NCBI GenBank assembly: GCA_021792955.1
Contig: JAJYTP010000006.1
Coordinates: forward strand, 1-51,608
Source of the DNA: an archaeon
GTDB taxonomy: Archaea > Thermoproteota > Nitrososphaeria > Conexivisphaerales > UBA164
DNA: 51,608 bases
Direction: 5' to 3'
Shown here piece after piece: positions 3,059 to 51,608 of the stretch. The position numbers and the translations under genes were made by a program. Below the pieces are notes generated by a model that was given only the letters and a program-made list of their open reading frames with translations, searched no databases and was not told the origin of the DNA. Numbering within the stretch: position 1 is the first letter of the stretch; every line of letters begins with the position of its first letter.

Positions 3059-4288
3059 TTGGCCATAAATGCCGGTGATACCGCATGGGTGCTTGCGGCC
3101 ACGGCGCTGGTCATGATAATGACTCCCGCTCTCGGTTTCTTCTATGGGGGCCTGGTCAGAAGAAAGAACCTAATCTCCACTATAATTCAGACCTTGACCA
3201 TATTTTCCGTGGTTAGCCTGATATGGGCGTTCTGGGCCTATTCCTTATCGTTCAGCCCGTCCGTGGACGGCCTAATAGGCAATCTCTCCAATGCTTTCAT
3301 GATGGGTGTAGGGGCGCAACCGAATCCCGCATACTCCGGTGTCATCCCCGCCCTCCTTTTCTTCGCCTTCCAGCTAAAGTTCGCCGGCATAACGCCAGCG
3401 CTCATGATAGGTGCCTTCGCGGAGAGGATTTCATTCAAGGCGTTGCTGATCTTTATCATCCTCTGGACCACGCTGATCTATTCGCCCGTAGCTAATTGGG
3501 TCTGGGGCCAGACCGGCTGGCTTCATAGTTTGGGCGTCATCGACTTCGCCGGCGGCCTCGTGGTGCATCTGACCGCCGGTGTTTCAGCCGTGGCCGCCGC
3601 CATCGTGCTTGGCAGGAGGAGTGGGATCGATAAAAAAAGGGAGATCAGGCCGAACAATATACCGTTCGTTATACTGGGTGCTGCAATCCTGTGGTTCGGG
3701 TGGTTCGGGTTCAATGGGGGGAGCGCCCTGGCCGCCGATGACATCGCCGTGCAGGCTATAGTGAACACCAACATGGCTGCGGCCGCAGCGGCGGTAAGTT
3801 GGATGCTTATGGACTGGTGGAGAAGGGGCAAGCCTTCGGCCGTCGGCATAGCCGTCGGCGCCGTGGCGGGCCTTGTGGCCATTACCCCGGCGGCCGGCTA
3901 CGTAACCACTATGGCGGCCATCGTAATAGGATTGGTTGGGGGCACCATCAGCAATACGGTGGCCAACTGGTATGCGCTTAGGGCCAAGCTGGATGATTCA
4001 TTGGATGTTTTCGCTGCCCATGGGGCGGGGAGCATATGGGGTGTACTGGCCACGGGGATCTTTGCCACGACAATGGTCAACCCAAACGGGCCTAACGGCC
4101 TATTATACGGCAATCCGCATCAGTTCCTGCTGCAGGCGTTTGGGTTATTGGTGGTTGGAACATTTTCTTTTGTGGGCGCGTACGCCCTTCTCAGGTTAAC
4201 CAATTTGATCACGCCGTTAAGGGTGACCCCTGAGGAGGAGGAAGAGGGATTGGACATGGCTCAGCTAGGTGAGGAGAGCTACGAGTGA
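3059..4288 (+). CDS. amt: Ammonium transporter, Amt/MEP/Rh family
   Basis: A 409-residue channel that conducts ammonia/ammonium across the cytoplasmic membrane. About eleven hydrophobic segments are visible. The twin pore histidines are present: the first in GGLVVHLTAGVSA, the second in AAHGAGSIWG. The signature NWVWG...GWL is also seen. The start is TTG at 3059, preceded at the right distance by GGGAGGA; the ATG at 3051 is out of frame. The C-terminus is short and acidic (EEEEEGLD). Amt genes usually sit next to a PII (GlnK) gene, but none is found in this window; the next gene downstream is not PII-like. Confidence 0.95.
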   Translation: MAINAGDTAWVLAATALVMIMTPALGFFYGGLVRRKNLISTIIQTLTIFSVVSLIWAFWAYSLSFSPSVDGLIGNLSNAFMMGVGAQPNPAYSGVIPALLFFAFQLKFAGITPALMIGAFAERISFKALLIFIILWTTLIYSPVANWVWGQTGWLHSLGVIDFAGGLVVHLTAGVSAVAAAIVLGRRSGIDKKREIRPNNIPFVILGAAILWFGWFGFNGGSALAADDIAVQAIVNTNMAAAAAAVSWMLMDWWRRGKPSAVGIAVGAVAGLVAITPAAGYVTTMAAIVIGLVGGTISNTVANWYALRAKLDDSLDVFAAHGAGSIWGVLATGIFATTMVNPNGPNGLLYGNPHQFLLQAFGLLVVGTFSFVGAYALLRLTNLITPLRVTPEEEEEGLDMAQLGEESYE

Positions 4289-7229: not shown

Positions 7230-9140
7230 TTATATCATCCTTCCCGTGAAATACCCCGAGGATACCGCGTCGACTATCTTGCCCGTCCTGCTTGCATCCC
7301 CAACCAGGTACGTCTCATAATTCTCCTTAAGCTCGCCGTAAAGGGAACGATCGCTGTATCCACCGAAGGCGACTATAAGGTAATCCATGGGTAGTTCGTC
7401 GCCGCCTTCAAGCGTTATATGCCGTTCGTGGATCTGCTTTATCCCCTTCCCCGTTATCATCTTAACGTTATACCCTTTCAGCTCCTTCAACAGATGTCCC
7501 CTGCTCAGGCTTTCCATGTCCAGCGCCAGCTGCGGCAGCATTTCCACGATCGTAACATCGTTGCCCTGCGCCGCCAGGTAAAGGGCCGTTTCACAGCCGA
7601 CCAGCCCCCCTCCTCCTACGACGATCCTGCTACCCTTGAACTCAAGCCTCCGCTCAAGCACCTTCTTTGCGGAGATGATGTAGTTTCTCCCGTCCGTTGC
7701 CGGCATATAGCATCTGGAGCCTGCGGCGACGATCACCACATCGAACCCCGAGCCCCTTATGTCGTCCGGCCCTGCCTCCCTGTTAAATTTTATCTCTATC
7801 CCCAGCTTCCTCAGCATGTAATCATAGTACTCCAGAAGCCAGAGCAGCTTTTCCTTTCCCGGGGGAGACGATGCCGCCAAAAGCGCCCCGCCAATCCTTT
7901 CCCCCTTTTCCCATATCTCAACGTCGTGGCCCCTCATCTTCGCCACCATGGCGGCCTCCAGCCCTGAAATGCCGGCCCCCACGACCAGCACCTTTTTCGC
8001 TTTCCTGGCCACGGGCAATATTTCATCGCTTTCGTTCCTTCCCACGATCGGGTTGACGCCGCACCTTATTGAGGTGCCTTCGTCATGCCTTGCCTTTATG
8101 CATTCGCTGCAGCCTATGCACCTCTTTATCTCCCCTTCATTGCCTGCAAGGGCCTTCCTCGGCCAATCGGGGTCGGCTATCAGCCCCCTTCCCAGGGCGA
8201 TCACGTCAGCGGCGTTAGATTCTAGGATTTCACTGGCATAAGAGGGGTTCCTGATGACCCCCACCGCTATCACCGGCACCTTCACGCCGCCGTCCTTCAG
8301 CGCCTTTGCCAGAAACGTCCTCCACCCTTCGGCGTACTGCATCGGCTCCAGTCGCCTTTCTTTATCCCCAAGCCCGAAATCGGCGTGCAGGGCGCAGTAT
8401 CCAAGCTCCTCAAAGCCCCTGGCTATTTTAACGCCCTCATCGGCCGTAATTCCGCCCTGGACGTTATCCATCACCGGCAGCCTGGCTGAAACCGGGAAGC
8501 TCCTGCCGCAGAGGTCGTTTATCCTCCTGATGATCATCTCCGCCATCCTCAGCCTGTTTTCAGTGCTGCCGCCGAATTTATCGTCCCTTTTGTTCGTGTA
8601 CGGGGATAGGAACTGGTTCACCAGAAGCCCATGGGCAGCTTCGATTTCAACGCCGTCGTATCCGGCGGCCTTGGCCCTGGAGGCTGCGCCCGCAAAGCCT
8701 TCAACTATCTCGCCTATCCCCTTTTCATCAAGCTCCCTGGGGATCATTCCATCATTCCTCAAATCCAGCGGTGAAGGGCCCACAGGGTGCCTTCCGGAGA
8801 CCTCCGTCTCTGAGAAGATGCCCGGGTGCGTGAGCTCTATTGAGGCAAACGATCCGAAGAGGTGTATGCCGTTTGAAATCCTGCTCAATCCAGGAATAAA
8901 ATCGTCGCTGTCTATCCTCGGCTGTGTTGCGCCGCTCCTTGCATCGGGGTAGATTATGCACATGTTTTCAAGGGTTACCAGCGACGCACCGCCCTGCGCC
9001 CTTCTCCTGTAATGGTAGACGAGCTCCGGAGTTACGTTCCCACCCGCATCTGCAAGGTTTGTCGATACGGGGGCGAAGATTATCCGGTTTTTCAGGTTAA
9101 GCCTTCCGAACTTTATTTCTGAAAAGAGCTTTTTGTAGGC
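7230..9140 (-). CDS. Old Yellow Enzyme / 2,4-dienoyl-CoA reductase-like
   Basis: A 636-residue NADH:flavin oxidoreductase of the FadH/trimethylamine-dehydrogenase type. The N-terminal FMN TIM barrel spans about residues 1-340 (LKNRIIFAPVSTNLA; then GYDGVEIEAAHGLLVNQFLS and NKRDDKFGGSTENR). A 4Fe-4S cluster motif follows (CIGCSEC plus a Cys 12 residues later, before GVNP). The C-terminal FAD/NAD(P) domain carries VLVVGAGISGLEAA and a second dinucleotide fold (RIVVGGGGLVGCETA). Relatives reduce enoyl-CoA or other activated alkenes. I start at the ATG 9140: it lies 28 bases after a TATATT box (9166-9171), whereas the upstream in-frame ATG at 9176 precedes that box. No operon partner is seen. Confidence 0.92.
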   Translation of the reverse strand, partial: AYKKLFSEIKFGRLNLKNRIIFAPVSTNLADAGGNVTPELVYHYRRRAQGGASLVTLENMCIIYPDARSGATQPRIDSDDFIPGLSRISNGIHLFGSFASIELTHPGIFSETEVSGRHPVGPSPLDLRNDGMIPRELDEKGIGEIVEGFAGAASRAKAAGYDGVEIEAAHGLLVNQFLSPYTNKRDDKFGGSTENRLRMAEMIIRRINDLCGRSFPVSARLPVMDNVQGGITADEGVKIARGFEELGYCALHADFGLGDKERRLEPMQYAEGWRTFLAKALKDGGVKVPVIAVGVIRNPSYASEILESNAADVIALGRGLIADPDWPRKALAGNEGEIKRCIGCSECIKARHDEGTSIRCGVNPIVGRNESDEILPVARKAKKVLVVGAGISGLEAAMVAKMRGHDVEIWEKGERIGGALLAASSPPGKEKLLWLLEYYDYMLRKLGIEIKFNREAGPDDIRGSGFDVVIVAAGSRCYMPATDGRNYIISAKKVLERRLEFKGSRIVVGGGGLVGCETALYLAAQGNDVTIVEMLPQLALDMESLSRGHLLKELKGYNVKMITGKGIKQIHERHITLEGGDELPMDYLIVAFGGYSDRSLYGELKENYETYLVGDASRTGKIVDAVSSGYFTGRMI

Positions 9141-9270
9141 CATGGCGCAAATCAGCCCCTTATCCAATATACGCATATCTGGAGCACAGCATTCAAAGGG
9201 CGCGGTCTATCGATCAAGCAAATAATATTTGGGAGTTTACCGCTAAATTGAGCGGGCCAAAATCTGGGGA

Positions 9271-27270: not shown

Positions 27271-28188
27271 CTAGAATTCGTCCCGCGACAGCAGCGTAAG
27301 CTCATCGAGGCGCCTTCTGTCGAGCGCCCTGCCATCGTATACCACAGTCAACCGTGTTATGCTTCCACGGGCGTCGAGCTCCAGGGCGGTTACCCCGAAC
27401 TTGAGCGCTGAATGTGGAGCGGCAGCCCATTCGAACCCGCCACCATAATCGCCGCCGACAACGTGGCGGAGCCCTGAGCCCGAGCCGTAGGGAGCCTCCG
27501 TCAGTATCCTTTTTAGATACCGCCCGATGGCGGCGCGGCCCAGCACCTGGGTACGAAGGGCCATATCTTCATAGACGGCGTCATATGCAAAGATGTCGAT
27601 CGCGGCGGCCGCGTCACCAGCCGAAAAGGCGTCCTGGAAGCGCCTGGCGGCCCTTTGGATCTTCACTGAGGCTTTGCTCGCTGCCTCCTTTTCATGGAGG
27701 TCTGGAGGGAACTTCTCGAGGGGCGTACGCAGGCGGTCATAGAGCTTCGAATCGAACCCGCAGCTGTCCCAGTAGTCCACCCACCTGACTATCTTTCCAT
27801 CCACGAAATCGACAACGCCAAGGATTCGCAGTTCGCCGCCGAACAGCTCCGGCGTATCCGTAAAGGCCACAACAGCGCTCTCCGTGCTTCCAAGTATGCG
27901 AGTAGGGTATGACAAGCCGCTTGGAGACCATCCAGGCATGTACCTTGTAAAAAGGTCCTTCAGCGCCTGGAAGCCGTCTATAAACCACCCCAGCGTGGCG
28001 TCCGTATAAGTAACCATATCGGGGGAGAAATGGGCCATAGTCCCGTCCACATCGTAGCGGCTCTTAGCGGTGAAGAACGACGAAAAGAATTTCACGGCTT
28101 CTGGCGTGGCATTCCTGATGTCGGCGATATCAGGATAGGGGTGCTCCTTACCGGCCTGACCTAGGGTTGATCCGCTCAATTCCACCAC
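27271..28188 (-). CDS. Tandem SnoaL/NTF2-like protein
   Basis: A 305-residue protein with two NTF2-like alpha+beta barrels. The first covers about residues 25-150 (FFSSFFTAKSRYDVDGTMAHFS, DFVDGKIVRWVDYWD). The second spans about residues 175-295 (RFQDAFSAGDAAAAIDIFAYD, GRAAIGRYLKRIL). SnoaL-like domains serve as isomerases, cyclases, dehydratases or ligand-binding folds. It is transcribed away from the LigW-type gene at 28296 with only 107 bases between them, and that whole neighbourhood concerns aromatic compounds, so a related role is plausible. The start appears to be GTG. No essential catalytic residues can be assigned. Confidence 0.75.
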   Translation of the reverse strand: MVELSGSTLGQAGKEHPYPDIADIRNATPEAVKFFSSFFTAKSRYDVDGTMAHFSPDMVTYTDATLGWFIDGFQALKDLFTRYMPGWSPSGLSYPTRILGSTESAVVAFTDTPELFGGELRILGVVDFVDGKIVRWVDYWDSCGFDSKLYDRLRTPLEKFPPDLHEKEAASKASVKIQRAARRFQDAFSAGDAAAAIDIFAYDAVYEDMALRTQVLGRAAIGRYLKRILTEAPYGSGSGLRHVVGGDYGGGFEWAAAPHSALKFGVTALELDARGSITRLTVVYDGRALDRRRLDELTLLSRDEF

Positions 28189-28295
28189 TTGACCGTAGGG
28201 GGCGGTCAGGAGCTTATACGGTTAGCTGAGAATTTACAATTTGGCGAAGGACAAATGTAGAAAACATTATTAGATCAAAAGTTGCATTGATAAAT

Positions 28296-29300
28296 ATGGA
28301 ATCAAAGGGTAGCTCAGTCAGGAGGACTATTGCGCTGGAGGAACATTTCTCGGCGCCTGCTGAATTAAGCAAAGATCAACATGAGGGCTCATTGCCTCAT
28401 GGCGGTTCATCGGCCGCATATTACTCTGAATTCGTTAGAAAGCTTGCGGACCTGGGGGAGATAAGGATATCCGATATGGATGCGGCCGGCATCGATGTGC
28501 AGGTCCTTTCGTTGACTTCGCCTGGAACTGAACAGATGGAGCCTGCTGATGCCGTAAATTTTGCAAGGTCTGTAAATGATTTCGTCGCCAAGGCGATTGA
28601 AAGGCATCCCTCCCGCCTAGCGGCATTTGCCGCGTTGCCTACGTCGGCCCCGGATAAGGCCGCGGATGAACTGGAGCGGACGGTGCAGGGATACGGCTTC
28701 AGGGGAGCGGTAATCAACGGCCATTCAAGGGGCAGATACCTTGATGATAAGTTCTTCTGGCCGATCCTGGAGCGCGCTGAGGATCTGAGCGTGCCAATAT
28801 ACATTCACCCAACCGTGCCTCCAAGGCCGGTCGTCGATGCGTACTATGCCGGGCAGTTCAGCCAGGACATAATTTTTGCACTTTCGACGTCAGGCTGGGG
28901 CTGGCACATCGAAACGGCAGTTCACGTGATCCGTCTGATACTGAGCGGGGCATTTGACAGGTACCCTAAGCTACAGATCATAATAGGGCATCTGGGCGAA
29001 GCCATACCCTTCATGATGGACAGGATGGACCGCAGGTTTTCCATGGAACTCACGAAGCTGGACCGTCCCATCAGTTCCTACCTGTGTGAAAATTTCAGCT
29101 ATACCATAAGCGGGTTCAATTTCACTCCGGCGTTCCTGAACCTTCTCCTTAAAGTCGGAGTTGAGAGGATCATGTTCTCTACTGATTATCCATATTCATC
29201 CATGAATGAGGCCAGAGAATTTCTGGAACGCCTGCCCGTCAGCCATGCCGATAGGGAGAAAATAGCGCACACAAATGCCGAACGCCTGATGTGTTTCTGA
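28296..29300 (+). CDS. LigW-type metal-dependent decarboxylase/amidohydrolase
   Basis: A 334-residue TIM-barrel enzyme of the amidohydrolase-2 group (gamma-resorcylate decarboxylase, ACMSD, LigW). Metal and catalytic residues appear in order: Glu and His in TIALEEHF, His in VPIYIHPTVP, His in IIGHLGEAIPF and the Asp in FSTDYPYSSM. Such enzymes decarboxylate hydroxybenzoates without cofactor, or hydrolyse ring lactones. The ATG at 28296 is about 28 bases after an ATTATTA box (28266-28272), so the in-frame TTG at 28287 is not favoured. Its neighbours are a SnoaL-like protein, an extradiol dioxygenase and a dienelactone hydrolase. Confidence 0.85.
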   Translation: MESKGSSVRRTIALEEHFSAPAELSKDQHEGSLPHGGSSAAYYSEFVRKLADLGEIRISDMDAAGIDVQVLSLTSPGTEQMEPADAVNFARSVNDFVAKAIERHPSRLAAFAALPTSAPDKAADELERTVQGYGFRGAVINGHSRGRYLDDKFFWPILERAEDLSVPIYIHPTVPPRPVVDAYYAGQFSQDIIFALSTSGWGWHIETAVHVIRLILSGAFDRYPKLQIIIGHLGEAIPFMMDRMDRRFSMELTKLDRPISSYLCENFSYTISGFNFTPAFLNLLLKVGVERIMFSTDYPYSSMNEAREFLERLPVSHADREKIAHTNAERLMCF

Positions 29301-29661
29301 TCCCCTGTTTACCTCCAGCGGTAGGGGGGGACAGTTGACGCCATGGCTTAATGCATGGAAGGTCAATAGGGATATTTGGTCCAGTTCGGCGATGAGTTGG
29401 ATGATCTGCAGTAGCACCCATTTCAAAAATACAGGGCTGGCCAATTTTGAACCGCCAGCACGGCTGATCACACCGGATTTGACCTGAGCGGTTGGTTGAA
29501 AGGGGAGCCGAACTGGATGAAGTGGTTAATCCGCGCGTGTAAACCCTTATGAAACACGATGTAAGGCCCCCGGCTCGCTCAGGAGCGCTGCTTGAAGGAA
29601 GGAAGGATGTGGTGTATTGGAAGTGTCATTTGAACGAACAGATCATGATCGACGGACGCGG
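29301..29661. other. Intergenic, no clear gene
   Basis: A plus-strand frame from 29549 reads RPPARSGALLEGRKDVVYW and then IMIDGR, which looks protein-like, but it runs into the dioxygenase gene on the other strand and matches no family I know. Otherwise nothing is seen. Confidence 0.3.
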
Positions 29662-30489
29662 CTATTTTTTTGGCGTAATTTCGACGATGTTGTTGGACGT
29701 ATACGTCGCCACCCTGTACATAGTCAAGACCCTGGGGTCAACATCCATTCCACCGAGCGCACCATACAGGATCAGGAGGCTGCCAAGCCTGCCCTCAGGC
29801 GCCACGCTTCTGAAAAGCGATCTGTCCTCCATTAATGTTTCAATGTTCCATCGTGTAAATGCCAGTCTAGCAAGTTCAAGGAACCTTTCGCCATCAGGCC
29901 ATGGCTGGTTTTCGCCGAAATCAGCTATTAGGTCCAGCCTGTGAAGAAGCGCGCCCGTGGCAACTATCGCGACGTCCTTTGAGCTCTTCCTGATAGCCTC
30001 ACCTATGATCCTCCCCCACATGATATGATCGGCCGATGATTCGCTGGCCAGGGACAGGGGAACTACGGGTATCCTGGCTTTCGGTGACAGATAGTAGAGC
30101 GGTACCCAGTGCCCGTGGTCAAGCCCGTGATCATCTGTTAAGCTCGCGTTAAAGGAATGCGCCTTCGCCTCACTGGCCAGCAGCTCGGCCAGCTCCGGAT
30201 CGCCCACAGCGTCATACCTGAAGTCATAAAAATAGCCCGGGAACCCGAAATAATCCTGGATGCACTGTAACCTCGGCTGGCCGTTGATCTTGAATCCGGA
30301 GACGGAGTTCCAGTGGGGAGAGATGGCTATTATCGTATCCGGCTCCCTGGAGTTCAGGGTCTCCCCTGCCCGTATCAGGGAGTCCACGGCCTCCCCCTCT
30401 TCATTCATGAAGGTATCGAAGAGGTCCCTTCCCCTGCTAAGCAGATCCGGGCCATGGGATGTAAAGATGGAATAAACGATATCGCCCAA
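29662..30489 (-). CDS. Class III extradiol ring-cleavage dioxygenase
   Basis: A 275-residue member of the LigB/DODA superfamily, which uses non-heme Fe(II) to cleave catechols next to the hydroxyls. Probable metal ligands and acid-base residues are the N-terminal His (FTSHGPDLL), the His in IAISPHWNS and the paired His in DDHGLDHGHWVPL. The C-terminal GALLHRLDL also fits. The start is TTG, with GGTGA seven bases upstream. It is in the same direction as the dienelactone hydrolase gene upstream, 103 bases apart. The actual substrate is unknown. Confidence 0.85.
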   Translation of the reverse strand: MGDIVYSIFTSHGPDLLSRGRDLFDTFMNEEGEAVDSLIRAGETLNSREPDTIIAISPHWNSVSGFKINGQPRLQCIQDYFGFPGYFYDFRYDAVGDPELAELLASEAKAHSFNASLTDDHGLDHGHWVPLYYLSPKARIPVVPLSLASESSADHIMWGRIIGEAIRKSSKDVAIVATGALLHRLDLIADFGENQPWPDGERFLELARLAFTRWNIETLMEDRSLFRSVAPEGRLGSLLILYGALGGMDVDPRVLTMYRVATYTSNNIVEITPKK

Positions 30490-30592
30490 CCCATTTCACC
30501 AGTTAGCCCGCCCTAATATGTTATCGATGTTATCTGATCTCATCTATCCATCCATCGTCGACAGGATGGGCTTAGCATTATCATCATTATCA

Positions 30593-31426
30593 TCATTTCA
30601 TCAGGGTCCTGTCGTAGAAATCGATGACCCTCTTCCAGGCATCCCTTGCGGCCGGCTCCCTATAGGTGGTCCTGTTGCTGTCATTGAAGAACGCATGAGG
30701 AGCCTCGGGGTATATCTTGATTTCAAAATCGGTCTTCCTGTATTTGACCATCGCCGCAACCAGCCTGTCGAGGCTGCCGTTTATCCTGTCATCCTCCCCT
30801 CCGTAGAGCCCAAGCACGGGGCAGCTTATGTTCTTCACCAGGTCTATGGGATCGGGGTTCTCCCCGTAGAACACCGTGCACGCCGCCAGGTCCGCCCTGC
30901 ACGCAAGGTTTATCGACATCCCCCCTCCAAAGCAGAAGCCGACGCTGCCCACCTTGCCCTGCCTGACGTATTCTCTTGAGTTCAGGTAGTCAACAGCCTT
31001 TACAAGGTGGTTAACCAGCCTGTCCTTCGGCAGGCCGCCCCCAAAGAGGGTCGACATGACCTTCTGAAGGGCCTCCCTCCTGTCGGGGGGCTGCTTTGAA
31101 AGTTCAGATTGAACGAAGGCTGTATCCGCCCTCCTGTTGGTGGGCAGCGTTTGCATGAAGGACCACGCCGATCGTATGTTGTCGGCGGTCAGGACCGATT
31201 TGAGCTCCCTGCTTTCGGAGTAGAGGTCGGGGGCCAGCGCAACGTAACCCTGCGCCGCGAACCTGTCGGCCACATCCTTTATGTGGTCGACAAGCCCCCA
31301 GATTTCATGTATGACTATGACAGCCGGCCTTTTTTCATTGACCTTTGGCCTTACAAGATAGCCTTCTATGTTCATTCCGTTGGACCCACTGAAAGTGGCG
31401 GTTTCAGATATCAGTTCTTCAGTCAT
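30593..31426 (-). CDS. Dienelactone hydrolase family protein
   Basis: A 277-residue alpha/beta hydrolase of the carboxymethylenebutenolidase type. Family residues are present: the Glu of VIVIHEIWGL, nucleophile Cys in VGFCFGGGM, Asp in YGGEDDRI and His in APHAFFNDSN. An insertion of about 35 residues (FGGGLPKDRLVNHL region) follows the lid. The enzyme opens dienelactones in ring-cleavage pathways. The ATG 31426 is chosen because a GTAAAAAG box lies about 27 bases upstream; the ATG at 31444 would be too close. It probably works with the extradiol dioxygenase downstream. Confidence 0.87.
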   Translation of the reverse strand: MTEELISETATFSGSNGMNIEGYLVRPKVNEKRPAVIVIHEIWGLVDHIKDVADRFAAQGYVALAPDLYSESRELKSVLTADNIRSAWSFMQTLPTNRRADTAFVQSELSKQPPDRREALQKVMSTLFGGGLPKDRLVNHLVKAVDYLNSREYVRQGKVGSVGFCFGGGMSINLACRADLAACTVFYGENPDPIDLVKNISCPVLGLYGGEDDRINGSLDRLVAAMVKYRKTDFEIKIYPEAPHAFFNDSNRTTYREPAARDAWKRVIDFYDRTLMK

Positions 31427-31555
31427 GTACCGGGTTCCATGCACCTGCTTTTTACCTTTGCCGAACTTTTATCGACCTCAGCTGGCTCCTGGGAGAAACA
31501 TACATAGATTAAATACTCTGGCCGGCGACCACTCAACGGGTGAGTTCGGCGCACA

Positions 31556-43636: not shown

Positions 43637-44488
43637 ATGAACATGCAAAAGATGTTAAGATCTATAGGCAACCAGGAAACGCTTGAAGGTTTGAAGAAGA
43701 TCGGAGTTTCAAGGGCCCAGTTTGAAGTCTATCTACTGCTGTACACACATGGACCGCAGACCGCCGCCGACCTATCGAACGCACTGAAGAGGGACAGGAG
43801 CGTGGTTTACAAGTACCTCGACAGGCTGTCAAGGCTGGGCCTGATAGAAAAGCAGCTTGACAGGTCAAACAGCTACTCTGCGAGGCCGGCCTCAGATGTC
43901 ATGTCGCTGATATCAAGCATGATAGATCAGGAGGCCAAAAGGAGCAGGTCGGCCATCAAGGAGTTCTTCGATAAGGTTGGAACTATTGAAAGGGTAGAGG
44001 CCAACCCCCGCGCTAAACAGGAGTACAAACTTATATTCAACAGGAAGCGGCTCTACGAAGAACTGTCAAGGCTCTTCCTTTCGACCACCGACGAATACAG
44101 GCTCATAATGTCCGGTAACGGCCTGCTCAGGAGCATCAGGCATGGCTTGATGGACCTGTACCTTGATATGCAGAAAAGGGGGGTCAGGATAGAGATCGTA
44201 TCTGAAGTTACGCCCACCAACCTGCAGGAGGCCGAGTATCTGATGAGGAAGATCCCTTTCAGGCACCAGAACGGCCTGCAGATACGGCTGAACGTATTTG
44301 ATTCCGACAAGGTGCTCCTGGGCGCTATCCAGCATGATGAGGATCTTAACATCAGCAGGGAGGACGACAGTTATATACTGATACGTGATCAGGTCTTCGC
44401 TCAAGGTTTTATACAGCTGTTCGATATTATATGGAATACTTCACAGGATGCATCAAAAATTATCAATATTATGAAATCCCAGCAGTAG
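43637..44488 (+). CDS. TrmB-family transcriptional regulator
   Basis: A 283-residue regulator. The N-terminal winged helix has the TrmB pattern (GVSRAQFEVYLLLYTHGPQTAADLSNALKRDRSVVYKYLDRL), followed by a short coiled linker (residues 95-125). The C-terminal domain resembles the phospholipase D-like sensor half (RGVRIEIVSEVTP near residue 185). TrmB proteins respond to sugars or other small molecules in archaea; the ligand here is unknown. Two ATG codons (43637 and 43643) are both possible starts. It sits between TFB and the ParB-like gene, all in one direction, but the spacing is over 55 bases. Confidence 0.85.
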   Translation: MNMQKMLRSIGNQETLEGLKKIGVSRAQFEVYLLLYTHGPQTAADLSNALKRDRSVVYKYLDRLSRLGLIEKQLDRSNSYSARPASDVMSLISSMIDQEAKRSRSAIKEFFDKVGTIERVEANPRAKQEYKLIFNRKRLYEELSRLFLSTTDEYRLIMSGNGLLRSIRHGLMDLYLDMQKRGVRIEIVSEVTPTNLQEAEYLMRKIPFRHQNGLQIRLNVFDSDKVLLGAIQHDEDLNISREDDSYILIRDQVFAQGFIQLFDIIWNTSQDASKIINIMKSQQ

Positions 44489-44547: not shown

Positions 44548-45408
44548 ATGCTGAGCTCGTCAGTTGGCGTTGGACGGTTTGAGCAGCTAAAGGTGAAGGT
44601 TAGCGAAGTGGACGACGATGAATTTGTATTCCGCGCTGACCTTGGTGACATAAATTCGCTGGCAGGCTCAATAGAGCGGTACGGCCTTCTGCAGCCGCTG
44701 ATCCTGAGGCTTAAGGCAAACCCCGAGAAGGAGGCCTATGAGCTGCTTGCCGGCCACAGGAGGCTGGCGGCCTGTAGGCTGCTCGGCTTCACGGAAGTCC
44801 CGGCCATTCTGGTAGACGTCAACGAAAAGGATGCGTTCATACTGGCGCTTACGGAGAACGTGCAGTCCAAGAGCCTGAACCCTATCGAAGAGGCCATGGC
44901 CTTTCAAAGCTACATCCACAGAAAGGGATGGGGAGGCGCGTCGGAGCTGGCAAGGAACATTGGCAAGAGCCCGGCCTACATATCCCTCAGATTGCAGCTA
45001 CTGCAGCTTCCGGACTCCATAAGGTCCATGGTGGCCAGCAACCGGCTGGCGCCGTTCACTGCGGCGGAGCTGCACGGGCTGAGCGGCAACCAGGCAGAGA
45101 AGCTGGTGACGTCAATAGGCGATGGCCGGGTATCGCTCAGAAGGGTGAGGAAGCTGGCCAAGGAGATAAAGGAGGAGAAGGAGATAGCACCGACCGACTT
45201 GGAGAGGTATTCGGCGACGCTTAAAATGTTCATACTTTCCACGAGGAGGACCCTCAATGAAATGGACGCCAGCATACACCGCCTCAATGAAAGCGGCGAT
45301 TATTACAGGAAGGCCGTCAAGTACCGTTACGATCTGCACAGGATCCTCGATTCGATGGTCAATGAGTACGCTTCTGTTAAGAAACAGCTCTTAGTGAACG
45401 AACTTTAG
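44548..45408 (+). CDS. ParB/Spo0J-like DNA-binding protein
   Basis: A 286-residue protein with the ParB N-terminal CTPase fold: GRFEQLKVKVSEVD...SLAGSIERYGLLQPLILR, then the ELLAGHRRLAACRLLG motif (GHRR) and ILALTENVQSKSLNPIEEAMAFQ. A central HTH (SELARNIGKSPAYISLRLQLLQLP) and a C-terminal helical dimerisation region follow. No ParA gene is adjacent, so it may regulate transcription or nucleoid structure rather than partition. The ATG is 26 bases after a TTTAATAA box (44519-44526). Its 3' end overlaps the convergent UbiD gene by 32 bases. Confidence 0.85.
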   Translation: MLSSSVGVGRFEQLKVKVSEVDDDEFVFRADLGDINSLAGSIERYGLLQPLILRLKANPEKEAYELLAGHRRLAACRLLGFTEVPAILVDVNEKDAFILALTENVQSKSLNPIEEAMAFQSYIHRKGWGGASELARNIGKSPAYISLRLQLLQLPDSIRSMVASNRLAPFTAAELHGLSGNQAEKLVTSIGDGRVSLRRVRKLAKEIKEEKEIAPTDLERYSATLKMFILSTRRTLNEMDASIHRLNESGDYYRKAVKYRYDLHRILDSMVNEYASVKKQLLVNEL

Positions 45409-46930
45409 CCCTTACCCTCTGGACTACGTCCTCAGGCATGGTAGGCCTCAGCAGATGGGGCCTCCTTGAATCTATTACGATCCTTCCGTCTACAGTCCTT
45501 ATACCTTCAGCAGGCTGTAACCGGGTTGACAGTGCCCAGATTATTTCATCATCATTCGACAGGTCTATATCATCATCCAGTATGATGTTCAACCCACCAT
45601 CATCCCTGTATGTGTGGGAAAGGATCAGTGAGTTCTCTACCCCACCACGAGCAGCTGTTACACTATCGTGGCTATTGATCACAAAGATGACCTTGCTGCT
45701 AGTGCCTTCAGGGCTAGCCGACGGGTCGAGCCTGTTACAGAAGACCCCCGACAGTATGTCCATGTTCCCCACCCGGTTGGAGGACCTCGCCAGCCTTCCC
45801 ATGAGCTCCCTGAACTTCGTGTTTCCCTCTCCATCGCCTACGACCACTATCTTGAGATAATGGTCCAGCCCGAGCAGGATGAGGCCCAGTTGCTTGGCAA
45901 GCCCGGGCTCCGCCCTCCTTATGGAGCCTATCGCCATATAGTGTGAAGAAGCGGTGGGCCAGTTCAAGAGGTACTCATTGGGCGGCATGAAACGCTCGAT
46001 CTCCTGCATCATAGGCGCTTCCTTGGCGACGCTGGACAGCAGGACGTGTTCCTTGGCGTTGGATGGATTGATGTCCAGGAAAATTGGGTTACTTTTCATG
46101 TAGAGCGATCGGACGTGCATGAGGTTGTTTGTTGACCTGTTGGATATATATCCCGTATATTCGCTGAACGGCCCTTCATGGAACTCCTCGTTTGCGGAGA
46201 TCTCCCCCTCGAACACGATTTCGGCATCGGCCGGCACCGGTATATCGTTCGTGATCCCTTGGGTAAGCTTGGGCTCGATGACGCTTCCTACCTTTGAATA
46301 TTCATCCTCAATGCGGGCCGCCGCGGCCATATAATATATGGGATGGGCCCCTATGATGACGGTAACGGGCAACGGCCTGCCCGCCTTCCTAGACAGGAGG
46401 TAGTAATTCCACAGGTGGCCCCTTGAGTGCATGCTTAGTGCGACCTTATCCTTCTCTAGGAGCTGAATCCTGGCAAAGCTCAGATTTATTATGTCGTTAT
46501 CGGCCGGATTTCTTGCGGCGATGAGCCCTCCGCTTATGTACCTTCCGCCGTCCTCCTTATAGTGCCTAGGCGCTGGTAACCTGAGCAGGTCGAGCGAATC
46601 CTCTCCATAAATCACCTCCTTTACTTGGGCATCGGATACGATCGAAGGGTTGCCATTCTTCTTGCTTATTATATCGTTCCACCTGCCGTAGAGGTCCTTT
46701 TCAGCGCATCCCAAGGAAAAGGCTATCCTCTCCTTCGTTCCGAAGACGTTGTTGATTAGCTTGATGCCGTCATAGCCATCGACCCTGTTAAACAGCAGTA
46801 TCGGATTGCGGTCCCTCAGCTCGTTGGCATAGCATGTAGGCTCGTAATCCACGCTGATCTTATCGTCTATTTCAAGGACATCATCAGGCCTGGCCTTCCA
46901 ATAGCCATCTATGAATTGCTGTAACGACAT
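45377..46930 (-). CDS. UbiD-family prenyl-FMN decarboxylase
   Basis: A 517-residue (de)carboxylase of the UbiD/Fdc1 type, which uses prenylated FMN to add or remove CO2 at aromatic or heteroaromatic acids. The cofactor-domain loop NLSFARIQLLEKDKVALSMH and the catalytic E-x-x-x-x-E stretch FHEGPFSEYTGYIS are present. The Arg/Glu triad appears intact. I begin at ATG 46930: TATTTAAT (46954-46961) lies 27 bases upstream and even overlaps the stop of the preceding UbiD gene. No UbiX flavin prenyltransferase is in the window; prFMN must be made elsewhere. Confidence 0.85.
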   Translation of the reverse strand: MSLQQFIDGYWKARPDDVLEIDDKISVDYEPTCYANELRDRNPILLFNRVDGYDGIKLINNVFGTKERIAFSLGCAEKDLYGRWNDIISKKNGNPSIVSDAQVKEVIYGEDSLDLLRLPAPRHYKEDGGRYISGGLIAARNPADNDIINLSFARIQLLEKDKVALSMHSRGHLWNYYLLSRKAGRPLPVTVIIGAHPIYYMAAAARIEDEYSKVGSVIEPKLTQGITNDIPVPADAEIVFEGEISANEEFHEGPFSEYTGYISNRSTNNLMHVRSLYMKSNPIFLDINPSNAKEHVLLSSVAKEAPMMQEIERFMPPNEYLLNWPTASSHYMAIGSIRRAEPGLAKQLGLILLGLDHYLKIVVVGDGEGNTKFRELMGRLARSSNRVGNMDILSGVFCNRLDPSASPEGTSSKVIFVINSHDSVTAARGGVENSLILSHTYRDDGGLNIILDDDIDLSNDDEIIWALSTRLQPAEGIRTVDGRIVIDSRRPHLLRPTMPEDVVQRVRAKVRSLRAVS

Positions 46931-46953
46931 AAAAGTACCTTTTTGTTTCACCG

Positions 46954-46961
46954 TATTTAAT
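46954..46961 (-). promoter_or_regulatory. Internal promoter between the two UbiD genes
   Basis: TATTTAAT on the plus strand is the minus-strand TATA box of the downstream UbiD gene. It spans the stop codon of the upstream UbiD gene. It implies that the second gene can be made separately from, as well as together with, the first. Confidence 0.5.
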
Positions 46962-48315
46962 TATTAGCTTTGGACGAAGTTTCGATCTTCCTCATTATGG
47001 AAGCGACCAGGTCCTTGGGGGCACCAGCAACCGGGGGGAAGCCGGTGATGGGCTTGGTGGCATCTATGATCACCTTGTCATCAAGGGTGCGATTTTCACC
47101 GCCAGCTGAATAGCCAGCTGGATTGAGGAAATTGCCAAGAGAACCTTCAATTATAGTGAAGGCGCTGGCATGGGATACTCTCGTAGTTACAGCCCAGAAT
47201 ACTGCCTCATCGCTGTATATGTCGACGTCTTCATCAACGACTATCACCATCCTTATGGCTATTTCCGTGGCTAGGGCGGCCATCGCGGCACGTTTGGCGT
47301 CCCCCTCATTCAGCTTCTCCATCTGAATGTACAGGAGGGGCGCGAAGTCATATCCAAATCTGACGTCCTTGACAGATGGGGATACTGCCCTGACGGAGTT
47401 ATAAACGGAAGCAAGGTGGGGTATATTCACCCCTAGGTTCAGATGGTCCTTGAACGCAGCCGCTATGTCGAGATATATGAAGTCCCTCTTCATCCTGACC
47501 CGTTTTACGGTAATGATTGGAACGCGCTGCTTGCCGGAATAATATTTTGGCCATTCCCCGAACGGCCCTTCCTCCCTGACGACGCTGGGGTCTTCAATTA
47601 CGCCTTCGATCACCGCTTCGCTTTGGACCAGATACGGAATATTGACCTCCTCCCCCACAGCTATTTCGAGCGGCTCCTGCAGGAACCCGCCGGCCGCATC
47701 CATTTCCCCACCTATTCCGAGGGGCCTGGATACTGCTCCGAAGTAAGCTGCTGGGTGAAGGCTGATGTTAATGGTTACCGGAACCTCCATCTTCAATTTG
47801 CTATACTTCTCGATTATCAGCTGCGCATCATGTCCGGGGTCAGCAAGTATACCGATGTGTTTTTCATCATAGATCTGCTGCCTGTATATCCCCATGTTCA
47901 GTGCCCCACTTTCAGGGTCCTTTAACACGGTGAGGCCACTGTCTATAAACGCCCCTCCATCTAATTCGTTATGCACGATGTGCGGCAGGGAGGATGTATC
48001 GCGTTCATCAACGTCATATGGGTGGGCTGTCACGGTAACCGGCGGGATTGGCTCTGCTGCCAATTTGAAGAATTTAGCTGATACTCTCTCTCCTTCCCTG
48101 CATCCTAGTGCCCTACCCATCCTCGATGTTGACGCAAACACGTTGGTGACCACCTTCTTCTTCTCTACGTTGTTGAAGAACAGCAATGGATACATCTGAC
48201 GCCTTTCGTATGCCTCCGCATATGCGTTAATCGCGAACCGAGGGCTCACGGGTTCATCTATGAATACAGTTTCATCCTTAACAGAATCTAAAAAACTTCG
48301 AAGGTTCTTGCTCAT
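46957..48315 (-). CDS. UbiD-family decarboxylase, second paralogue
   Basis: A 452-residue UbiD-family enzyme, clearly different in sequence from its neighbour. NMGIYRQQIYDEKH is the conserved Arg-bearing cofactor strand, and REEGPFGEWPKYYSG carries the catalytic glutamates. The mid part GGEMDAAGGFLQEPLEI fits the family's prFMN-binding region. Two UbiD proteins encoded side by side could be two enzymes or a heteromer, as known for some phenyl-phosphate carboxylase systems. A CATTTAAG element lies about 30 bases before the ATG. It heads a two-gene minus-strand unit, divergent from the enamidase-like gene. Confidence 0.87.
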   Translation of the reverse strand: MSKNLRSFLDSVKDETVFIDEPVSPRFAINAYAEAYERRQMYPLLFFNNVEKKKVVTNVFASTSRMGRALGCREGERVSAKFFKLAAEPIPPVTVTAHPYDVDERDTSSLPHIVHNELDGGAFIDSGLTVLKDPESGALNMGIYRQQIYDEKHIGILADPGHDAQLIIEKYSKLKMEVPVTINISLHPAAYFGAVSRPLGIGGEMDAAGGFLQEPLEIAVGEEVNIPYLVQSEAVIEGVIEDPSVVREEGPFGEWPKYYSGKQRVPIITVKRVRMKRDFIYLDIAAAFKDHLNLGVNIPHLASVYNSVRAVSPSVKDVRFGYDFAPLLYIQMEKLNEGDAKRAAMAALATEIAIRMVIVVDEDVDIYSDEAVFWAVTTRVSHASAFTIIEGSLGNFLNPAGYSAGGENRTLDDKVIIDATKPITGFPPVAGAPKDLVASIMRKIETSSKANN

Positions 48316-48416
48316 TTAAGTTTACCGTCCACTTTGAAATTCTTAAATGTTTTCAGGTTAGAATCAGCAACCTAAAACTCAGCTTATATGATGTGGTGTC
48401 AGCCACCGCATTTCCA

Positions 48417-48430
48417 TTTAGTCGACTAAA
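48417..48430. promoter_or_regulatory. Perfect 14-bp palindrome
   Basis: TTTAGTCGACTAAA reads the same on both strands. It lies about 100 bases upstream of the UbiD start in the divergent region, a plausible site for a dimeric regulator. Confidence 0.45.
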
Positions 48431-48638
48431 AATACTGTGCTCTTGATATAGGTCGTTGAACTATTTTCCAGACATATCTCCGTTGGATTAATGGTGTCTA
48501 GAATTAAGTTTTGTCGACTTGATGAGGCGGCGTTAGTTCGTTTACGATACGTGGTTGGCCATCACGAATGGCGCTAGCGAATATACCAACTGTGATATAA
48601 TAAAAATCATGAAAATAAAAAATGCTAGCCTTCCTGGC

Positions 48639-48656
48639 CTAAGCATTGATGCTTAG
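48639..48656. promoter_or_regulatory. 18-bp dyad, 8-bp arms
   Basis: CTAAGCAT (48639-48646) and ATGCTTAG (48649-48656) are perfect inverted arms around TG. The close 2-base spacer fits a protein-binding dyad better than a terminator hairpin. It precedes the weak frame at 48649 and the enamidase promoter. Confidence 0.45.
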
Positions 48657-48864
48657 CTGTCAGCCTATCGTTGATATAATTACTTCAATTGACAACACGT
48701 CCAAACCAAGATTATTCACGATAGTTAAGCCAGGCAAATTTATCTACATCTACTGGAAAGGAGGAGGCGTCGATCACGGCAATTTATGCGGCTGGTGTCT
48801 GAACGGCGCCAAAATTTTTCATCAACAAGCTTCGAGTTTTACAAAACCTTTAATTAATATGTAG
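48649..48864 (+). CDS. Doubtful small ORF, unknown
   Basis: A 71-codon frame just before the enamidase-like gene. The sequence includes KPGKFIYIYWKGGGVDHGN and a CGWC motif. It has no ribosome site, no good promoter (its ATG lies inside a palindrome) and no family that I recognise. It may be chance or a decayed gene. Confidence 0.2.
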   Translation: MLSCQPIVDIITSIDNTSKPRLFTIVKPGKFIYIYWKGGGVDHGNLCGWCLNGAKIFHQQASSFTKPLINM

Positions 48865-48884
48865 AGAAAATAGATACGATTGAT

Positions 48885-50150
48885 ATGAAGGTTTCTATAG
48901 AGAACATAGGTAAGATCGTAAGCGGAGACTGGGATAAGGGTATACTTAAAGGCGATACAGTAACCATTGAAAACGGGAGATTTAGCGGAATAGGTTACAG
49001 GGATGAGGCCAATCCCAGTAAATCAGATGTTACCATAGATGCGAACGGCATGGTCCTCATGCCGGGCTATATAGATCCGCACACGCATATATCCATAGGT
49101 GATTACTCTCCCATGCAGAGAATGGTGGGGTTGATGGAGGAAGCTCTGTTACAGGGAATTACAACCGTAATGGATGAATTCAACCAGTTCGAAGGATTAC
49201 CCCTATTTTACCCACCGGATCCGGCCGGCGTCAAGGCGACGGCTATAGCCGCATACAGGGCCTGGAAGAACTACAGGCCCGGTGGCGCCCAAAAGGTGCA
49301 TGCCGGCAGTATCACGCTGGTAAAGGGGCTAAAGGAGCAGGATTTTAAGGACCTGGCGGATATAGGCGTCTGGAGGGTTGCGCAGATAGGAGGAAGTTCG
49401 GATCTAACCGTAAAGGAGCTATTAGAGGAGGCCAGCTTCGCAAGGAAGTACGGCATGTTCATTCCCAGCAATTATGGCTCGGGAGTGCTAAAGGGTGCCG
49501 TGGAGCTCGATCTCGATTTTATCAAGAAACTAAAACCAGACAAGCTGGCGCACATCAATGGCGGCAGCACAGCATGCAGCTGGGATGACACTAGGGCACT
49601 AATAGATGAAACTTCAATGGCGCTGGAGATAGTCCCTTACGGGAATCTCAAGATGGCGGTTCAGATAATCGAGTACTTGAAGACGAAAGGCCAGTTGAAC
49701 AGGTTGTTAGTAGGGAGCGATACGCCTACAGGGCAGGGGTACTTCCCTGTGGCTGTGCAGAGGGCCGTTAACATAATATCCAGTTTGGGCAATATTGCAG
49801 CTGAGAAGGCTATAGCCATGGCTACGGGCAATACACATGACCTTTACCACAAATGGATAAACACCGGTAAGATACAGAAAGGATATGAAGCTGATGCAAT
49901 AATAATAGACAGGCCGCCCGGCAGCGTAGGCAAGGATGCCCTTGGGGCCATTGAGGCAGGCGACACGGTGGGGACTGCCATGATAATGGTAGATGGAAAG
50001 GTAGTCGCGCTCCGCGGCCGCGACGCGAGGCCGACGACTAAGCACATAAGGTTAAACGGTAAGGATCTGGGTGTCAGCGACCCGAACGACGCGCTTTTCG
50101 ATCCACCGCGATTCTACTGGAAGAGCACAGGAGAGACATATCTGCTTTAA
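48885..50150 (+). CDS. Enamidase-like amidohydrolase
   Basis: A 421-residue cyclic amidohydrolase similar, from memory, to enamidase (Ena) of nicotinate fermentation, which opens 6-oxo-tetrahydronicotinate. Shared patterns: GYIDPHTHISIGDY (His66, His68), KVHAGSITLVKGLKEQDF, LAHINGGSTACS (His223), LEIVPYGNLKMA, LLVGSDTPTGQGYFP (Asp279), ATGNTHDLY and PGSVGKDALGAIEAGD. In Ena a bridging Glu and a further His complete a two-metal site; here those places read VAQIGGS (Gln167) and IPSNYGSG. The TTTAATTAA box lies about 32 bases upstream. Function is inferred; it could be a related lactamase with a changed metal centre. Confidence 0.75.
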   Translation: MKVSIENIGKIVSGDWDKGILKGDTVTIENGRFSGIGYRDEANPSKSDVTIDANGMVLMPGYIDPHTHISIGDYSPMQRMVGLMEEALLQGITTVMDEFNQFEGLPLFYPPDPAGVKATAIAAYRAWKNYRPGGAQKVHAGSITLVKGLKEQDFKDLADIGVWRVAQIGGSSDLTVKELLEEASFARKYGMFIPSNYGSGVLKGAVELDLDFIKKLKPDKLAHINGGSTACSWDDTRALIDETSMALEIVPYGNLKMAVQIIEYLKTKGQLNRLLVGSDTPTGQGYFPVAVQRAVNIISSLGNIAAEKAIAMATGNTHDLYHKWINTGKIQKGYEADAIIIDRPPGSVGKDALGAIEAGDTVGTAMIMVDGKVVALRGRDARPTTKHIRLNGKDLGVSDPNDALFDPPRFYWKSTGETYLL

Positions 50151-50171
50151 ACTCCACCATTAACCCACCAT

Positions 50172-50189
50172 CTGTCTGTCATGAGACAG
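50172..50189 (+). terminator. Short hairpin after the enamidase gene
   Basis: CTGTCT (50172-50177) and AGACAG (50184-50189) pair around a 6-base loop 22 bases after the stop codon. It is possibly a terminator; a following T tract is missing. Confidence 0.35.
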
Positions 50190-50256
50190 CAGGGCGTACA
50201 GGCGTTGCGTCCCATGATGGCCGAATAATTTCCCTTTTCTATAATGTAGTTTTTAG

Positions 50257-50403
50257 ATATTAAGGCAATACATCAGGGCGAACCTAGCTTTAAAAGAAGG
50301 AACTTCAATCTGGAGGACGGGGCTAGGTGGTACCACCCTCTGTGGAACCTCAAGCTCTAGTGTGCACGCCTCGCTGAAGGCACAGCAGTCCCCCGCTATA
50401 TAA
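50257..50403 (+). pseudogene. Possible 3' tail of an IS605-type tnpB
   Basis: A 48-codon open stretch after TAG 50254. Its end reads ANLALKEGTSIWRTGLGG and then SSSSVHASLKAQQSPAI. Such Gly/Ser-rich tails ending in QxSP are what I recall at the C-terminus of archaeal TnpB/OrfB proteins, downstream of the zinc finger. No start codon or catalytic part is present. It would be the scar of an IS605-family element between the enamidase and BMP genes. Weak evidence. Confidence 0.3.
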
Positions 50404-50507
50404 GTCAATGAAGTGCGCCGTCCTAAGTTTGGGTTGAAGATAATATTATTGAACAGTATTATGGCTCAAGCCTTGAGCTAATATTTAAAAGAACTATGTA
50501 AATATGC

Positions 50508-51575
50508 ATGACAATGAAATCATCGATATTAGCTATAATAGTGATAGTGATAATAGTCATCGCAGGAATAGGGGGCTATGCATACTACCTGTCCACATCG
50601 CCCAGCAAGCCAGCACCGACGCCAAGCAAGACGCTCAAGATAGCGCTAATCCTTCCGTCGGAGGCAAACGACTTCGGCTGGAATCAGGATATAGCGACAG
50701 CATTTGCTCAGGATTCGCAAATCTACGGGTACAATTTCTCAATAGACCAGAATGTAGGGGAGGCAACTACCGCGGACACTGCTGCACTTGAATACTACGC
50801 GGGTCAGGGTTATCAGATCGTCTGGGCCGCGGCGGATGGTTGGCAGGTGCCCGTCCTCACGGCGGCAGCTGCTTATCCAAACACATATTTCGTATGTGCG
50901 GATTTAACAAACTTTACAAACCCCAATACAGGGGCCCTTGAAACTAACGTACTTGCCATAGATTACAATCTAACATATGGTGCGTACGCAGCGGGCGTAC
51001 TTGCAGCATATCTATCAAAGACAGGCACCATTGGATATCAGGCTGGATTCTCATTTCCGAGCACTGAAGAGATAGGGTATGCGTTCATGGCAGGGGCCAG
51101 ATCTGTAAATTCAAGCATCAAATTCGTCTATGACTTCCCCGGGACATGGTCTGACGTTTCGGCCGGCTCTGTTGGTGCTCAGTCATTGATCTCAGCTGGA
51201 GCCGATGTCCTGCTGTTCAGGGGTGACGGTCAGACGCTTGGCGGAGAACAGGCAGCCGCATCAGCAGGTGTCTATGCTATAGGTGACATGCTGGACCAAT
51301 CACCGCTTAACCCAGATCATATAGTGGCGAGTAACACATACAACGACACAGCAGCATTGACGTTTGTGTTAAATCACTTTGTGAATGGCCAGATGTCGCA
51401 GATAGTTGATAGAGACAACAACGTGCCACACACTAGTACGCTTACATTGGGCCCGGCTGCATCAACCCTGTTGACCGCGCAGCAGCTGCAGAGCCTCAAC
51501 CAGGTAATAGAGGGGCTGAACAACGGTACGATAGTCCCGCCATTCGTTTCCACGCTTCCACCATCAGGTTCCTGA
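50508..51575 (+). CDS. BMP-family substrate-binding protein
   Basis: A 355-residue ABC-importer binding protein of the basic membrane protein (BMP/Med/PnrA) family, anchored by an N-terminal helix (ILAIIVIVIIVIAGIGGYAYY) with a Pro/Thr-rich linker and no lipobox Cys. Family patterns: KIALILPSEANDFGWNQDIA, YQIVWAAADGWQVPVLTAAAAYPNTYFVCAD, AAGVLAAYLSKTGTIGY. Characterised relatives bind purine nucleosides. Here the neighbours suggest another small ring compound. ATATTTAAA lies about 25 bases before the start, so it is leaderless. ATPase and permease genes are expected just beyond the window. Confidence 0.88.
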   Translation: MTMKSSILAIIVIVIIVIAGIGGYAYYLSTSPSKPAPTPSKTLKIALILPSEANDFGWNQDIATAFAQDSQIYGYNFSIDQNVGEATTADTAALEYYAGQGYQIVWAAADGWQVPVLTAAAAYPNTYFVCADLTNFTNPNTGALETNVLAIDYNLTYGAYAAGVLAAYLSKTGTIGYQAGFSFPSTEEIGYAFMAGARSVNSSIKFVYDFPGTWSDVSAGSVGAQSLISAGADVLLFRGDGQTLGGEQAAASAGVYAIGDMLDQSPLNPDHIVASNTYNDTAALTFVLNHFVNGQMSQIVDRDNNVPHTSTLTLGPAASTLLTAQQLQSLNQVIEGLNNGTIVPPFVSTLPPSGS

Positions 51576-51576
51576 T

Positions 51577-51600
51577 CCGATAATGGTATCCCATTATCGG
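51577..51600 (+). terminator. Strong hairpin after the BMP gene
   Basis: CCGATAATGG (51577-51586) and CCATTATCGG (51591-51600) are perfect 10-bp arms with a 4-base loop TATC, two bases after the stop codon and followed by CAAATTTT. It fits a terminator, or an mRNA-stabilising hairpin that sets a high level of binding protein relative to the downstream transporter genes. Confidence 0.65.
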
Positions 51601-51608
51601 CAAATTTT

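Follow-up and report, generated by a model that had tools for sequence, protein, structure and literature searches.

Introduction

In Eubacterium barkeri, nicotinate is hydroxylated to 6-hydroxynicotinate by nicotinate dehydrogenase (NDH), the ring is reduced, and the enamidase Ena carries out hydrolysis to 2-formylglutarate (PMC9304392). Decarboxylases of the UbiD family, which depend on prenylated flavin mononucleotide (prFMN), include HmfF and PA0254 (HudA), which act on 2,5-furandicarboxylate and pyrrole-2-carboxylate, respectively. No archaeal enamidase or UbiD/N-heterocycle pathway was found in the open-access literature. The list of carbon and nitrogen sources assigned to heterotrophic relatives of the ammonia-oxidizing archaea is short. 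Here we describe a locus at the end of a 51,608-nucleotide stretch of DNA (the window; contig JAJYTP010000006.1, designated C55) from a 1.17-Mb, 73%-complete genome of a Nitrososphaeria archaeon. The locus encodes two UbiD proteins, an enamidase homologue and part of an importer, and we judge it probable (roughly 0.6) that it is half of a co-regulated catabolic module for an N-heterocycle in one family of this class, split by a contig break.

Continuity and Recurrence of the Locus

An earlier note, made from the window alone, had recognized the two UbiD genes, the enamidase-like gene and a gene for a BMP-type binding protein, and all four are present where it placed them and belong to the families it named (Table 1). 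It had also pointed downstream for ATPase, permease and ring-modifying genes. A contig break closes the window, whose last 127 bases (51482..51608) are identical to C14:1-127 of a second contig. Joining C55 and C14 by this 127-bp exact overlap yields the second half of the locus, where such genes were found in the order ATP-binding cassette (ABC) ATPase, two permeases, a 219-amino-acid (219-aa) open reading frame (ORF), a molybdenum-hydroxylase large subunit (XdhL), a second enamidase homologue (Ena2) and an MTHFS-like gene. One short overlap such as this might in principle reflect a repeat; relatives in which the BMP gene is followed by the ATPase and permeases (loci L024 and L075) support the join. 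The full BMP/PnrA ABC importer set, comprising binding protein, double-domain ATPase and two BPD_transp_2 permeases, is consecutive. UbiD-B and UbiD-A probably form one operon, because the gap between them is 5 nt.

The named near relatives are metagenome-assembled genomes. An Ena homologue is present in 8 of 400 genomes of the class, seven of these eight being in the same family, and 7 of the 11 family genomes carry the module. In three genera the module genes are found again with their order changed, for example as ABC-perm-perm-orf211-UbiDB-Ena2-XdhL-UbiDA-ParB-TrmB within ∼13 kb (G016) or as Ena1-UbiDB-Ena2-XdhL-UbiDA-ParB-TrmB (G043). Ena, UbiD-A, UbiD-B and close XdhL are jointly absent from four family genomes: XdhL (>50% identity) was found in 7/7 Ena-positive versus 0/4 Ena-negative genomes (Fisher p=0.003), UbiD-A in 6/7 versus 0/4 (p=0.015) and UbiD-B in 5/7 versus 0/4 (p=0.045). 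Note that these p values treat the 11 family genomes as independent and that incomplete assemblies add noise. The switch between presence and absence is not a single split, because two genera hold both states. The earlier note had connected the genes by neighborhood only and had stated that relatives in which they are never linked would refute the association. They are linked in several relatives, and shuffled recurrence together with joint absence supersedes neighborhood as the basis for the association.

The TrmB-family and ParB-like genes upstream are members of the conserved set. The ParB-like/UbiD-A arrangement is identical in every UbiD-A locus of the family, and TrmB stands beside UbiD-A/ParB in four relatives (G016, G043, G038 and G053) and near Ena/XdhL in a fifth (G049). 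G053 carries two TrmB-ParB-UbiD-A copies (L073 and L074), in which UbiD-A shares 96% and 89% identity, respectively, with its counterpart in the window.

A perfect palindrome, TTTAGTCGACTAAA, lies in the 569-bp intergenic region between UbiD-B and Ena1, and an identical copy is found on C14. No further copy with zero or one mismatch was detected in 399 kb of the genome (about a third), where ∼0.2 were expected by first-order Markov simulation. In four relatives (G047, G043, G038 and G049), a site TTTAGWCGWCTAAA with 0-2 mismatches is located ∼50-130 nt before ABC ATPase, XdhL, UbiD-B or UbiD-A/TrmB. In G016 one copy adjoins Ena2, and two more 2-mismatch matches fall outside the module, close to the chance expectation. 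Note that TTTAGTCGACTAAA was discovered post hoc, after several promoter regions had been inspected, and that the relatives provide a partial check. Judged from sequence, the module is probably co-regulated, and TrmB is probably the regulator acting at this putative operator.

Table 1. Features of the locus, given as positions in the window or on contigs C14 and C13 of the same genome
Feature	Position	Strand	Remarks
TrmB-family regulator	43637..44488	+	PF01978 1.2e-13; candidate regulator of the module
ParB/Noc-like	44548..45408	+	PF02195, PF17762; convergent with UbiD-A, overlapping
UbiD-A	45377..46951	-	524 aa; PF01977 9.5e-48; prFMN-dependent decarboxylase family
UbiD-B	46957..48315	-	452 aa; PF01977 3.1e-42; first gene of the probable UbiD operon
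Palindrome TTTAGTCGACTAAA	48417..48430		perfect; putative operator; between UbiD-B and Ena1, ∼100 nt 5' of UbiD-B start
Second site TTTTGTCGACTTGA	48509..48522		degenerate, 3 mismatches; weak, may be chance
Ena1, enamidase homologue	48885..50150	+	421 aa; Amidohydro_1/3; divergent from the UbiD genes
BMP/PnrA-type substrate-binding protein	50508..51575	+	355 aa; Bmp PF02608 1.8e-32; of ABC importer
Palindrome TTTAGTCGACTAAA, identical copy	C14:453-466		upstream of ABC ATPase
ABC ATPase	C14:573-2105		double-domain
Permeases	C14:2086-3144 and 3137-4072		two BPD_transp_2
219-aa ORF	C14:4069-4728		
XdhL	C14:4884-7043	-	molybdenum-hydroxylase large subunit
Ena2	C14:7352-8626		68% identical to Ena1
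MTHFS-like	C14:8803-9543		next to Ena2
UbiX	C13:93047-93661		TIGR00421 237.6 bits (cut-off 108.9)

The Enzymes and Their Relatives

Ena1 is homologous over its full length to E. barkeri Ena (∼39% identity), which is its best PDB match (2vun, E=5e-79 by phmmer over residues 2-386). Positions H67, H69, E164, H193, H220 and D276, numbered as in E. barkeri and counted on the 2vun alignment, are presumably the metal ligands, as assigned in this family. Ordinary Ena homologues, bacterial and archaeal, retain H67, H69, E/K164, H193, H220 and D276 (position 164 of the Haloarcula protein is K in one alignment and shifted in the other). All 12 proteins of the clade that contains Ena1 and Ena2 read H H Q N H D, so that the HxH motif, the beta-6 His and the beta-8 Asp are kept while the bridging Glu (E164 to Q) and the beta-5 His (H193 to N) are lost. 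This variant clade is monophyletic (support 100/100) on a long branch, and a C-terminal tail, FDPPRFYWKSTGETYLL in Ena1, is conserved among its members. From sequence, we do not expect these proteins to form the binuclear site of an enamidase, and our best guess is that they are single-metal hydrolases. Near position 98 the clade has a D-E motif that might serve as a substitute ligand; we do not claim this, because members of the amidohydrolase superfamily commonly carry an Asp at that point. AlphaFold models of Ena1 (from a five-sequence alignment) and of a 213-aa module protein had mean pLDDT values of 38.8 and 37.9, respectively, and were not used.

Both UbiD proteins contain the UbiD_N, UbiD and UbiD_C domains (Pfam), and in both the nearest PDB match is HmfF (6h6v; 1.8e-41 and 2e-42). 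The catalytic Arg-Glu-Glu is retained in each, as is the His at the position setting substrate preference in HmfF and PA0254. In the tree, UbiD-A groups with a protein of a second archaeal class, with G387 and with Alphaproteobacterial proteins. The genome also encodes UbiX. As a marker for presence/absence profiling UbiX was rejected, nearly all family genomes carrying it.

The best PDB match of XdhL is the large subunit of E. barkeri NDH (3hrd_A, 1e-73), and the catalytic Glu is retained when XdhL is aligned to aldehyde oxidoreductase. Large subunits outnumber possible partners elsewhere: the single-contig genome G414 encodes 15 molybdopterin large subunits versus only six 2Fe-2S subunits, and partners may be shared. 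A cluster on C13 of the window's own genome (L035:3648-11656 in G000) combines SsnA-like and cytosine-deaminase-like amidohydrolases, UbiX, an NTPase and the M, S and L subunits of xanthine dehydrogenase (XDH), together with a 207-aa protein that resembles the 219-aa ORF of the module.

The earlier note had proposed looking for the same gene set in other archaea. Besides the three genera above, the combination of Ena, UbiD and molybdenum hydroxylase occurs with a different importer in a second class, in three genomes (G414, G442 and G598, one of them a single contig) from one family of the same phylum. Their Ena variants belong to the same clade (55-57% identity) and adjoin a UbiD-A-clade UbiD and a transporter of the energy-coupling factor (ECF) type, which comprises two ATPases, a CbiQ-type permease and a small membrane protein with a relative on C14. 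The clusters of G414 and G598 continue with SsnA-like amidohydrolases, an F420 oxidoreductase and an XDH-type large subunit (XdhL); the G442 contig ends within the neighborhood of that subunit.

Ordinary archaeal Ena proteins with all six ligands are found in five other clusters (L125, L127, L128, L129 and L130), in the order XdhL, Ena, F420 luciferase-like monooxygenase (LLM) oxidoreductase, with ABC genes of the branched-chain type. Four of the five include AA_synth, which is 52-54% identical to the gene in the Sulfitobacter cluster encoding 6-hydroxynicotinate reductase (Hnr). These second-class clusters appear to constitute an archaeal route of their own, the F420 enzyme possibly taking the place of Hnr, and the earlier note's remark that it knew of no such archaeal pathway was too strong.

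Elsewhere in the window, genes for SnoaL-like, Amidohydro_2, LigB-type ring-opening dioxygenase and dienelactone hydrolase proteins are grouped at 27271-31444, possibly as a separate aromatic degradation cluster, and a 648-aa flavin oxidoreductase of the old yellow enzyme/2,4-dienoyl-CoA reductase type (PF00724) is encoded at 7230-9176.

Discussion

Taking together the gene identities, the continuity across the break, the recurrence, the altered ligands and the shared palindrome, we propose the following scheme. The BMP/ABC importer would take up a compound that we infer to be N-heterocyclic, and XdhL would hydroxylate its ring, probably borrowing small and FAD subunits. UbiD-A and/or UbiD-B, with prFMN supplied through the genome's UbiX, would decarboxylate the heteroaromatic acid, and Ena1/Ena2 would act on the resulting ring, probably by hydrolysis. 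The order of import, hydroxylation, decarboxylation and ring opening is suggested by known family chemistry. The earlier note's proposal of import, decarboxylation and ring opening holds in so far as there is a module for uptake and catabolism that has downstream ABC partners, a ring-hydroxylating molybdoenzyme, conservation in related archaea and a putative shared operator. Enamidase chemistry is not assured: ring opening of that kind cannot be assumed, because two of the six metal ligands are lost in the Ena clade.

Several points weigh against this scheme. The Ena variants, with two ligands missing, might not be hydrolases at all. Some UbiD enzymes act on aromatics that contain no nitrogen, and UbiX, being present also in family genomes that have no module, does not discriminate. 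No gene for an FAD (M) or 2Fe-2S (S) subunit is adjacent to XdhL in the module loci. Close BMP homologues are found in 4/7 Ena-positive versus 0/4 Ena-negative family genomes, which is not significant (p=0.11). UbiD reactions are, moreover, reversible (PMC7976604, PMC8379154).

The best-surviving alternative, possible though rather doubtful in our estimate, is breakdown of purines or other nucleobases. Here an imported nucleobase would be hydroxylated by XDH and its pyrimidine ring opened by amidohydrolases; UbiD would either decarboxylate an imidazole carboxylate, as in a xanthinase-type route, or work alongside a reductive route of the SsnA type. Such a reading narrows the substrate of the proposed N-heterocycle module and does not exclude the module. 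Three Alphaproteobacterial loci with a UbiD of the UbiD-A clade also encode XDH M/S/L and two Amidohydro_2 proteins; two of them (Ponticoccus and Ensifer) include UbiX, and two (Sinorhizobium meliloti and Ensifer) a purine or NCS2 nucleobase permease. The C13 cluster joins SsnA-like, cytosine-deaminase-like, UbiX and XDH genes, and the genome has OTCase/YgeW-type genes too, although the SsnA and carbamoyltransferase matches are under curated cut-offs and the module's XdhL is below the XDH equivalog cut-off (474 versus 784 bits). An MTHFS-like gene adjoins Ena2. PDB relatives of the BMP protein include an atrazine-binding protein and basic membrane protein A, and we take the ligands of such relatives to include purine nucleosides as well as atrazine. 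The second-class clusters pair SsnA-like and F420 oxidoreductase genes with XdhL, as do the uric acid clusters of Chloroflexota (PMC12507026). Because of the bacterial UbiD-A clusters and the SsnA/F420 neighbors, a nucleobase-like substrate is somewhat favored over nicotinate.

A nicotinate pathway of the E. barkeri type is improbable, even though Ena1 and XdhL each have their closest solved relative among the E. barkeri nicotinate enzymes. It is weakened because Ena is altered and because neither Hnr nor AA_synth was found by tblastn in the module loci plus 399 kb (about a third) of the 73%-complete genome. E164 and H193, lost in 12/12 variants, are kept (as E/K and H) in ordinary homologues, including the Sulfitobacter protein that is encoded with Hnr. 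The E. barkeri scheme, furthermore, requires no UbiD.

Biosynthetic or carboxylating use, with the UbiDs running in reverse or the gene set modifying a cofactor or secondary metabolite, would draw on the reversibility noted above. We consider it very unlikely; a dedicated importer, an oxidizing molybdoenzyme and patchy presence in the family fit catabolism better. That unrelated genes have come together by chance, as the use of both strands and of at least three transcription units might suggest, is largely refuted: the genes recur in new orders across several genera and in two classes, they are lost together, and they share the palindrome. The second class argues against chance, since its genes cover the same functions with another importer.

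It is possible, though less likely than not, that the N-heterocycle module represents a previously undescribed archaeal pathway in which an N-heteroaromatic acid, once imported, is degraded by UbiD together with an amidohydrolase of a new subtype (metal site HxH...Q...N...H...D), the core having been combined with importers of several kinds: BMP-ABC, ECF and, in bacteria whose amidohydrolase is a different one, NCS2. If true, it would give heterotrophic relatives of the ammonia-oxidizing archaea a source of carbon and nitrogen and extend the UbiD family to further heteroaromatic substrates. The Ena clade is a naturally occurring test case for the ligand requirements of an amidohydrolase.

Compared with nicotinate catabolism in E. 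barkeri, which provides the nearest solved relatives of XdhL (3hrd_A) and Ena1 (2vun), the module has Ena proteins that lack E164 and H193 and adds two UbiDs, a BMP importer and a second Ena paralogue, while Hnr was not found in the sequence searched. The reductive uric acid (yanthine) clusters resemble the second-class cluster in grouping SsnA-like, XDH-like and F420 luciferase-family genes; the published set has no UbiD or Ena, and the SsnA-like gene of the window's genome lies outside the module. The Alphaproteobacterial clusters share with the module a UbiD-A-clade UbiD, XDH and two amidohydrolase-superfamily proteins, with a base-type transporter in two of three, but differ in having another amidohydrolase family and transporter, a complete XDH M/S/L and no Ena. 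Although the module UbiDs are ∼31% identical to HmfF and UbiD-A has a longer C-terminus, HmfF is the nearest structure to both, and Arg/Glu/Glu and the specificity His are common to them, HmfF and PA0254/HudA (PMC7976604).

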